Positions 44,120 to 57,198 of a stretch of 64,000 nucleotides of DNA are shown piece after piece. The translations under genes and the position numbers were made by a program. The stretch is taken from the NCBI GenBank assembly GCA_028284905.1, contig JANQQU010000035.1:62001-126000 (forward strand), written 5' to 3'. Source of the DNA: Calditrichia bacterium (GTDB lineage Bacteria; Calditrichota; Calditrichia; RBG-13-44-9; J075). The notes under the pieces are model-generated. The model did not search any database. It had not been told where the DNA came from and saw nothing but the letters and a program-made list of their open reading frames with translations. Every line of letters begins with the position of its first letter. Position 1 is the first letter of the stretch.

Positions 44120-45178
44120 ATGAAAATCGCAATGTTACTTTCCGGCGGGGTAGATAGTTCGGTGGCTTTACGTCTTTTGAAAGATGAAGGTCATGATCTA
44201 ACTGCGTTTTATTTGAAAATTTGGCTACAGGAAGAATTTTCCTTTCTGGGAGACTGTCCCTGGGAAAAAGATTTGGAATATGTCCGGGCAGTTTGTGAGC
44301 AGGCGGATGTGCCGCTGGAAGTGGTGCCAATGCAAACCGAATACTGGGATTCGGTAATCAAATATACCATTGAAGAAATTGAAGCCGGCAGAACGCCGAA
44401 TCCCGATATGCTTTGTAATAACTGGGTTAAATTCGGGCAATTTGTTGATAAAATTGATCCTTCGTTTGAGAAAGTCGCCTCTGGTCATTATGCCAGTGTG
44501 CGGGAAGCAAACGGGGAATTTTTCCTGGAGCGTGCACCGGATCCGGTGAAAGATCAGACCTATTTTCTCGCACGGCTTTCCCAGCAGCAGCTCTCCCGGG
44601 CGCTTTATCCATTGGGGCCTTATATGAAGACGCAAGTGCGGGATTTGGCGAAGCTCTATAATCTTCCCACCCAAAATCGCCGGGATAGCCAGGGACTTTG
44701 TTTCCTCGGGCAAATTAAATTCTCCGATTTCGTGAAAGAACATCTCGGTATTCGCAAAGGGGATATCATCAATATCGACAGTGGAGAAAAGCTTGGCGAG
44801 CATAATGGCTACTATTACTACACGATTGGTCAGCGGCAAGGTTTGGGTCTGTCCGGCGGTCCCTGGTATGTGGTGGAAAAAGATATTCCGGCGAACCAAA
44901 TCTACATTTCCCAACGAATGGATATGGAAAATAAACATCGGGATACTTTTCTGGCCGGGGATTTTCGCTGGATATCCGGTGAACGTCCTGAGAAAACAAG
45001 TTTGCAGGTGAAAATCCGCCATGGGGCTTTAATTTACGATTGTGAAGTAAAATTTGGGGAAAACGATCAGGCTGAAGTAACTCTGGACCGTCCGGATCGC
45101 GCCGGTATAGCCGCCGGACAATTCGCGGTCTTTTATGATGATATTCGCTGCCTCGGTAGCGCAGTAATTTTGAAATAA
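44120..45178 (+). CDS. mnmA: tRNA-specific 2-thiouridylase MnmA
   Basis: This 352-residue enzyme makes 2-thiouridine at position 34 of Glu, Gln and Lys tRNAs. The PP-loop SGGVDSS is at residues 8-14, the first catalytic cysteine lies in PNPDMLCNNWVKF near residue 107, and the second in SQGLCFLGQIKF near 198. The C-terminal beta-barrel is present. Both cysteines are normal codons. In selenium users its product can be turned to 2-selenouridine by SelU/MnmH, which is not in the window. Confidence 0.95.
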   Translation: MKIAMLLSGGVDSSVALRLLKDEGHDLTAFYLKIWLQEEFSFLGDCPWEKDLEYVRAVCEQADVPLEVVPMQTEYWDSVIKYTIEEIEAGRTPNPDMLCNNWVKFGQFVDKIDPSFEKVASGHYASVREANGEFFLERAPDPVKDQTYFLARLSQQQLSRALYPLGPYMKTQVRDLAKLYNLPTQNRRDSQGLCFLGQIKFSDFVKEHLGIRKGDIINIDSGEKLGEHNGYYYYTIGQRQGLGLSGGPWYVVEKDIPANQIYISQRMDMENKHRDTFLAGDFRWISGERPEKTSLQVKIRHGALIYDCEVKFGENDQAEVTLDRPDRAGIAAGQFAVFYDDIRCLGSAVILK

Positions 45179-45226
45179 AAAATTAACCCGAAAACCATAG
45201 CTCATCGCTTAACACCGGAGACAGAT

Positions 45227-45565
45227 ATGATCGAATTGATTTGCGCGAAAACATGAAGCACTTGCAAGAAGGCGGTCGCCTTATTGGATGAAAAAAATAT
45301 CGCTTATCAATACCGGGAATATTTTCAACAACCACTCTCCCGGGAAGAGATACGAGTTATGCTGAAAAAGCTGGATCTCTCCGCACAAGATATCCTTCGA
45401 AAGCGGGATAAAGCGTATAAAGAAAATAACCTGGATGCAGTAACCGACGAAGAAAAGTTAATCGGTTATATGAGCGAAAACCCCGGTCTCATCCAGCGCC
45501 CGATCGGAATCACTGATGGAAAAGCAGTGGTCGGCAGGCCGGTAGAAAATTTGTTGGACTTATAA
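45227..45565 (+). CDS. ArsC/Spx-family thioredoxin-fold protein, predicted selenoprotein (in-frame TGA = Sec10)
   Basis: The frame from ATG 45227 to the TAA at 45565 encodes 112 residues with one internal TGA at 45254-45256. The residues around it are CAKT-[TGA]-STCKKA, where the ArsC/Spx redox motif normally reads CxTC/CxxC followed by a basic pair, so the TGA stands exactly at the first cysteine. Downstream, the family hallmark LIQRPIGI and the closing VGRPVENLL match ArsC-like proteins. GGAG lies six bases before the ATG, supporting a start ahead of the TGA. A hairpin with a GGTC loop follows at the spacing of a bacterial SECIS. Likely role: thiol/selenol redox enzyme or arsenate-reductase-like protein. 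Alternatives are a nonsense mutation or sequencing error. Read as a normal ORF it would start at 45284 and lack its active site. Confidence 0.85.
45254..45286 (+). promoter_or_regulatory. Predicted bacterial SECIS element with its UGA codon
   Basis: After TGA (45254-45256) the mRNA can fold CAA (45265-45267) with TTG (45284-45286), a G/A mismatch, AAGGC (45269-45273) with GCCTT (45278-45282), and apical loop GGTC (45274-45277). The loop starts 17 bases after the TGA and opens with G. Known bSECIS elements have 16-37 bases to a small apical loop with a G in the first two positions, and E. coli fdhF also uses GGUC. Confidence 0.8.
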
Positions 45566-45575
45566 TGCCATCAAA

Positions 45576-45612
45576 AGAAAAACCTGAGCAGAAATGATGC
45601 TCAGGTTTTTTT
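45576..45612. terminator. Bidirectional terminator between the ArsC-like and M42 genes
   Basis: AACCTGAGC (45581-45589) pairs perfectly with GCTCAGGTT (45599-45607). A-rich sequence lies on the left and seven T residues lie on the right, so it can end transcription from both converging genes. Confidence 0.85.
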
Positions 45613-55986: not shown

Positions 55987-56030
55987 CAACAGACTAAAAA
56001 TAGAGAGTAATAGATTTGTAGCACAAGGTT

Positions 56031-56126
56031 AAACATCACTCCGAGCCAAAACGTCTAAGTATTCACCTGAATATAAGATGTCCGGCCGATAGGGTGATAC
56101 CGGAAACGGGATCGCCTTCCGTGTTT
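56031..56126 (+). ncRNA. Predicted Moco riboswitch (moaA leader)
   Basis: The leader contains ACTCCGAGCC (56038-56047) and the later CCGGCCGATAGGG-to-CGCCTTCC region, which match the Moco RNA motif known upstream of moaA operons. A closing helix AAACA/TGTTT (56031-56035 with 56122-56126) encloses it. A long hairpin is formed by ACGTCT pairing with AGATGT, with the inner stem GTATTC/GAATAT. CGCCTT (56113-56118) could pair with AAGG-A-GCG of the SD, giving a way to hide the moaA start when Moco is bound. The pairing scheme is by eye only. Confidence 0.72.
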
Positions 56127-56142
56127 GAAAAGGAGCGAAATT

Positions 56143-57198
56143 ATGAAGCGCCGTAATACTATAGACGGTCTTCAACAGGCAATATCCCCCCAGGAAGTCA
56201 ATTCCCCGAATACGCTGATAGATAATTGGGGCCGCCGGATCGACTACGTCCGCTTGGCTGTTACCGATCGCTGTAATTTACGCTGTATTTACTGCATGCC
56301 GGAAAAGATGCGTTTTTTGCCTCGTAAGGAAATTCTGACTTTCGAGGAAATGGAGCGAACCCTGCGCATATTGGCCGGAATGGGCATTCAAAAAGTGCGG
56401 ATTACCGGTGGCGAACCATTTGTGCGAAGAGGACTGAGCGAATTTTTGGAACGCATTAATAATATTTCCGGAATCGAACGCATCCATATTACCAGTAATG
56501 GCGTGTTGTTGCCGCCCTATCTGGACGATTTGAAGCGGTTGGGTATTGCCGGTGTGAATCTTAGCCTGGACAGCCTGGACCGGGAGCGTTTTTATAAGAT
56601 GACCCGCCGGGACGATCTGCCGGATGTGATGACCGCTATGGAAGGGATGATTGCCCGGGAAATTCCGCTGAAGATCAATGTTGTTTTGATGGAAGGGAAA
56701 AATATCGAGGATGTTATTCCGATGGCAGCACTGACCAGAAAATATCCGGTGGATGTCCGCTTTATCGAGGAAATGCCCTTTAACGGCACCGACAATGGTA
56801 AACAGCGTTTGCGCTGGGATTATAAACGGATTCTGGAAAAGCTCAAGGAATCCTATCCGGATATTTACAAACTGGAAGACCCACCGGCATCCACGGCAAT
56901 GAATTATGCAATTCCCGGTCACCTTGGTAACGTGGGCATTATTGCCGGATTTAGCCGAACATTTTGCGGCACCTGTAATCGTATCCGGATTAATGCCCGG
57001 GGAATGCTGCAGACCTGCCTCTATGGCGATGGGGTGCTGGATGTAAGGGAGTTGCTCCGTAACGGGTCCAGCGATGAGGAAGTCGCAGACTTCTTCCGCT
57101 TGCATATCGGGCAGCGCGCTAAAGATGGCTGGGCTGCAGAGAAACAACGCTTGAAAGTGCGGGAAGTAAGCACATCGATGTCCACCATTGGTGGATAA
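56143..57198 (+). CDS. moaA: GTP 3',8-cyclase MoaA
   Basis: This 351-residue radical-SAM enzyme makes the first molybdopterin intermediate from GTP. The SAM-binding cluster motif is CNLRCIYC near residue 46, and the second cluster is CGTCNRIRINARGMLQTC near residue 278. The C-terminus ends IGG, the double glycine essential in MoaA. The ATG at 56143 follows AGGAG by seven bases. It is headed by the riboswitch leader and followed by the moaC-moaB fusion. Confidence 0.96.
   Translation: MKRRNTIDGLQQAISPQEVNSPNTLIDNWGRRIDYVRLAVTDRCNLRCIYCMPEKMRFLPRKEILTFEEMERTLRILAGMGIQKVRITGGEPFVRRGLSEFLERINNISGIERIHITSNGVLLPPYLDDLKRLGIAGVNLSLDSLDRERFYKMTRRDDLPDVMTAMEGMIAREIPLKINVVLMEGKNIEDVIPMAALTRKYPVDVRFIEEMPFNGTDNGKQRLRWDYKRILEKLKESYPDIYKLEDPPASTAMNYAIPGHLGNVGIIAGFSRTFCGTCNRIRINARGMLQTCLYGDGVLDVRELLRNGSSDEEVADFFRLHIGQRAKDGWAAEKQRLKVREVSTSMSTIGG

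Follow-up and report, generated by a model that had tools for sequence, protein, structure and literature searches.

The window (the whole stretch of DNA analysed, 64,000 nucleotides) harbors on its forward strand a gene of the ArsC family that is interrupted by an in-frame stop codon. The frame opens with an ATG at 45227 and ends with a TAA at 45563-45565, and on translation its sole internal stop is a TGA at 45254-45256, corresponding to codon 10. Read with selenocysteine (Sec, U) at this codon, the product has 112 residues (MIELICAKTUSTCKKAVALLDEKNIAYQYREYFQQPLSREEIRVMLKKLDLSAQDILRKRDKAYKENNLDAVTDEEKLIGYMSENPGLIQRPIGITDGKAVVGRPVENLLDL). The redox site is U-S-T-C-K-K-A; in alignments Sec10 occupies the catalytic-Cys position of the ArsC fold, equivalent to Cys12 of ArsC from the Escherichia coli plasmid R773. 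Cys13, encoded by a TGC codon (45263-45265) that aligns with the same residue in two relatives, is the predicted resolving Cys of this UxxC motif. A Shine-Dalgarno-like GGAG (45217-45220) lies 6 nt before the ATG, and a GGAG-like motif also precedes the ATG in the two relatives. Just 3′ of the TGA, hairpin scanning and folding locate a bSECIS-like hairpin (45265-45286) with a 5-bp upper stem (AAGGC/GCCTT, 45269-45282), a GGTC loop (45274-45277) and, separated by a G.A mismatch, a lower stem of three pairs. Downstream of the gene, a probable intrinsic terminator can be read from the sequence at 45582-45612 (ACCTGAGC / GCTCAGGT, followed by a T run). Directly upstream, on the same strand and after a gap of 48 nt, lies mnmA (44120-45178), an ORF of the tRNA 2-thiouridylase family named by sequence resemblance (start MKIAMLLSGGVDSSVALRLL) and not by a profile test. 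Elsewhere in the window, an ordinary molybdenum/tungsten-cofactor riboswitch (Rfam RF01055, 73.7 bits, 56027-56151) overlaps the start of a moaA-like radical-SAM ORF (56125-57198).

Predicted decoding of the TGA codon

The initial annotation had proposed a TGA at the first redox cysteine of a frame starting at ATG 45227, a Shine-Dalgarno sequence before it and no other stop before the TAA, all of which are present. It had also anticipated that a standard caller would start the gene at 45284, and indeed the list of ORFs made with ordinary stops gives only a 93-aa ORF from a TTG at this position. This mechanical call would fit a reading in which the TGA genuinely terminates translation and the gene product is that 93-aa ORF. 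However, such a product would be devoid of the first strand and of the entire redox site. The three genomes that carry the gene also show conservation of the nine codons 5′ of the TGA (LIC.K.U), each time with an SD-like motif in front. A truncated product is thus highly improbable. Equally improbable is that the living gene had TGC or TGT, altered by a sequencing error, or that the gene is decaying. The window sequence does derive from one assembly, but two further genomes, from different genera, likewise have TGA at this codon, none of the three genes contains a second stop, and the divergence 3′ of the TGA is of the coding type. Both readings were rejected on the basis of the conserved TGA, the conserved 5′ codons and this pattern of divergence.

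The source genome (8.55 Mb in 93 contigs) contains all four genes of the selenocysteine machinery, which had been named as the first thing to look for. A profile search of its contigs recovers selA (532 bits), selB beside it and selD (389 bits), and a tRNA-Sec with a UCA anticodon scores 73 bits. The second-best tRNA-Sec match (contig C80) was discarded as a tRNA-Ser. The selA gene is split over two contig ends (C46 and C28, covering profile positions 79-454 and 1-111, respectively). The selD gene (L019, G000:C21:22816-23739) has an in-frame TGA of its own (TCAGUASKIGPGDL), and its product is a predicted Sec-containing SelD, a known kind of protein. Insertion of Sec at codon 10 appears nearly certain.

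The bSECIS-like hairpin and its conservation

Published limits for bSECIS elements are a loop of 3-9 nt with a G within its first two positions, a stem of at least 4 bp, a spacing of 16-37 and a minimum free energy (MFE) of -7.5 kcal/mol or lower (PMC13188914). The window hairpin lies within every one of them (TGA-to-loop spacing 17 nt, GGTC loop, 5 bp, -8.1 kcal/mol) and corresponds in loop, distance and stems to the structure that the initial annotation had described. Nevertheless, of 3636 in-frame codon positions taken from the neighbouring genes, 256 (7%) reach -8.1 kcal/mol, and this energy on its own is weak evidence. Hairpins that also have this kind of loop and spacing at -7.5 kcal/mol are rarer (33 of the 3636 positions). 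When the peptide was re-encoded at random with synonymous codons, 6 of 1000 versions equalled the observed hairpin. When a strict bSECIS hairpin was required together with a start before the TGA and an open frame of at least 60 codons beyond it, the TGA at 45254 was the only one to pass out of the 2107 in the window, counted on both strands. Because energy alone is common, the argument for a selenoprotein rests on conservation and on the contrast between Cys and TGA copies.

Among the other genomes compared within the phylum, orthologues occur in two of the same taxonomic family that belong to different genera (G003 and G004), with protein identities of 68% and 60%. Both have TGA at codon 10, and 3′ of the TGA most differences among the three genes fall at third codon positions. 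Their hairpins are GCAAGGC-GGTC-GCCTTGC in G003 and GCAAAGC-GGTC-GCTTTGC in G004, with MFE values of -14.4 and -12.4 kcal/mol, and were equalled by 1 and 4 of 1000 random synonymous encodings, respectively. The stem AAGGC/GCCTT has become AAAGC/GCTTT in G004, two synonymous changes having replaced one G-C pair by a compensatory A-U pair. ArsC-type and YffB-like homologues from the rest of the phylum carry TGC or TGT at the Sec position. A scan of 23 such Cys copies yielded no comparable hairpin: some have weak or differently positioned candidates, the best of which has a spacing of 23 and -4.9 kcal/mol, and the others have none. The predictions made for relatives are thereby borne out, namely that they would have TGA or a Cys codon at this position, that the hairpin would be kept only in TGA copies and that stops would not be scattered elsewhere in the gene. 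An apparent match in Caldisericota (L051) proved spurious, being a 16-residue match in a different, ribosomal-protein-like frame.

In four YffB/Spx-like copies within the phylum, a TGA likewise occupies the Sec position and a separate hairpin follows at spacing 18 (L042, L045, L046 and L069, in genomes G027, G039, G034 and G030, respectively). These hairpins (-4.9 to -6.5 kcal/mol) are weaker than the -7.5 limit. The sites read IPNU-QQIRK or VPSU-GQIRK, so that the motif is UxxI, and sister genera have closely related Cys copies. Unlike the window gene, they are without the arginine triad discussed below and occupy a separate branch of the tree. Among genomes having the family, a TGA copy is present in 7 of the 16 with selA and in 0 of the 10 without it (Fisher p = 0.017, ignoring the relatedness of the genomes). 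G039 combines a TGA copy and selA with no tRNA-Sec above the Rfam cut-off; as this genome is 72% complete, the tRNA gene probably lies in the missing sequence. The tree needs three changes of Sec state, of which the starred branches force at least two. Hence the Sec states of the window group and of the YffB-like group appear to have arisen separately, as two independent Cys/Sec switches.

Placement within the ArsC fold

The window protein scores 61.4 bits against the Pfam ArsC family (PF03960, gathering cut-off 24), but falls below the more specialized models. For TIGR00014, the equivalog of glutaredoxin-type arsenate reductases, it reaches 86.3 bits against a cut-off of 106.05 (82 and 95 bits for the relatives), and for the Spx/MgsR models TIGR01617 and NF002459 it reaches 64 against 75 bits and 63 against 123 bits. 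Residue alignment with R773 ArsC, using the letters of PDB 1i9d, places U10, R58, R91 and R104 at C12, R60, R94 and R107. All three orthologues keep the arginine triad, whereas the corresponding residues are S, R and Y in Spx; in the YffB-like group they are N, R and a residue other than R. The tree joins the window group to the ArsC clade with support 99/94, R773 ArsC and Spx being long branches. An AlphaFold model, built with Cys replacing Sec, has a pLDDT of 93, and its closest folds are the arsenate reductases 3rdw and 3f0i (TM 0.93). Relative to R773 ArsC (1i9d, 1jzw), with which the fold is shared (TM 0.89 to 1i9d), the protein has Sec10 for Cys12, Cys13 at the position of Ser15 and Cys6 for His8, and its C-terminus is shorter.

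An alternative is an Spx-type regulator whose CxxC switch has Sec as its first residue and which would bind the alpha subunit of RNA polymerase. The fold is shared with Bacillus subtilis Spx (PDB 1z3e), the CxxC of which is placed like the UxxC of the window protein, Spx structures are among the fold matches and, as noted, TIGR01617 gives 64 bits. However, the protein is under every Spx cut-off, its triad is typical of ArsC, its tree position is with ArsC and its TM-score to Spx (about 0.83) is lower than to ArsC. Spx membership was rejected on these four grounds, and a regulator of this type seems very improbable. Owing to the arginine triad, the position in the tree and the closest folds, together with the clear Pfam ArsC score, the protein is, as judged from sequence and predicted structure, ArsC-type rather than Spx-type. 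The broader ArsC/Spx label of the initial annotation therefore stands for ArsC and is dropped for Spx.

Proposed function and relation to known selenoproteins

The locus as a whole is best explained by a 112-residue ArsC-family selenoprotein that most likely acts like an arsenate reductase. That it is a redox enzyme with a Sec nucleophile is held with high confidence. In the proposed mechanism, UGA codon 10 would be decoded as selenocysteine by SelB and tRNA-Sec, directed by the hairpin just 3′ of it. R773 ArsC binds arsenate through three arginines and attacks it with its catalytic residue. By analogy, Arg58, Arg91 and Arg104 would hold the oxyanion and the Sec10 selenolate would attack it, after which Cys13, or the lineage-specific Cys6, may resolve the intermediate as an internal selenenylsulfide. 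Thioredoxin or glutaredoxin would presumably reduce this selenenylsulfide and thereby recycle the enzyme. A selenolate needs no assistance to be ionised at neutral pH, and this may have allowed Cys6 to take the place of the active-site His8.

Arsenate as the physiological substrate is a more even question. Because the TIGR00014 score lies below the curated cut-off, activity as an arsenate reductase cannot be taken for granted. The Sec-ArsC gene has mnmA as its neighbour and no arsenic-resistance (ars) gene beside it, and a profile search of the source genome gave no Acr3 above cut-off; the natural substrate is for these reasons uncertain, and from the sequence evidence the chances for arsenate appear about equally divided.

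The conserved neighbour keeps a role in tRNA thiolation possible. An mnmA orthologue (73% identity) lies directly upstream of the Sec-ArsC gene in both relatives, the distances across the three genomes being 1, 37 and 48 nt (48 in the window), and mnmA adjoins none of the other ArsC-family loci examined. The protein might accordingly have the ArsC fold without being an arsenate reductase, and use its UxxC to reduce disulfides or persulfides in general, possibly on behalf of MnmA in tRNA 2-thiolation. This arrangement of genes and the absence of adjoining ars genes fit such a role, as does the resemblance of UxxC to the motif of Trx-fold reductases. The source genome also encodes SelU/MnmH, which acts on the 2-thiouridine made by MnmA. 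On the other hand, a plain disulfide reductase would not need the arsenate-binding triad, which all three proteins keep, and adjacency within one family is weak evidence of function. This reading is thus considered unlikely, though it deserves some weight. Less probable still is a distinct Sec-ArsC subfamily within one bacterial family, characterized by the triad, UxxC and Cys for the active-site His and encoded with mnmA, that would act in tRNA thiolation or selenation (by providing MnmA with sulfur or selenium, or by reducing either of them for it) instead of or besides acting on arsenate.

Under the preferred reading, a selenoprotein that acts like an arsenate reductase, the protein joins a known group. 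Sec-containing arsenate reductases have been known since 2005, when 14 sequences of the UxxS type were described from the Sargasso Sea (PMC1088965). The GOS survey of 2008 listed 77 sequences of ArsC 1 (UxxS) and 42 of arsenate reductase 2 (cd03032, UxxC; PMC2398784), and reviews include selenoprotein arsenate reductases (PMC9312934, PMC13188914). The UxxS type (COG1393/TIGR00014; PMC1088965, PMC2398784) likewise has Sec at the catalytic Cys and a bSECIS element; by description it differs from the window protein, which has UxxC, Cys6 for R773 His8 and the mnmA neighbour. The UxxC type comprises the GOS cd03032 sequences and the Sec-ArsC family of NCBIfam, NF041106 (ArsC_rel_Se_1), and combines, as here, UxxC with an ArsC/Spx-fold protein. 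In contrast to NF041106, against which it scores 20.7 bits (cut-off 85), the window protein keeps the ArsC arginine triad. It is distinctive in uniting this triad with UxxC and an mnmA neighbour, the GOS sequences being compared by description only.

The window protein is a well-supported added member of the Sec-containing ArsC families and opens no new kind of system. Proteins like it are missed because standard gene prediction truncates them and removes the active site. A literature search by phylum name returned no selenoprotein paper for Calditrichota, and the locus adds a well-supported selenoprotein to this lineage. Within this one phylum, the ArsC fold would have undergone two separate Cys/Sec switches, with Cys and Sec copies near enough for direct comparison.
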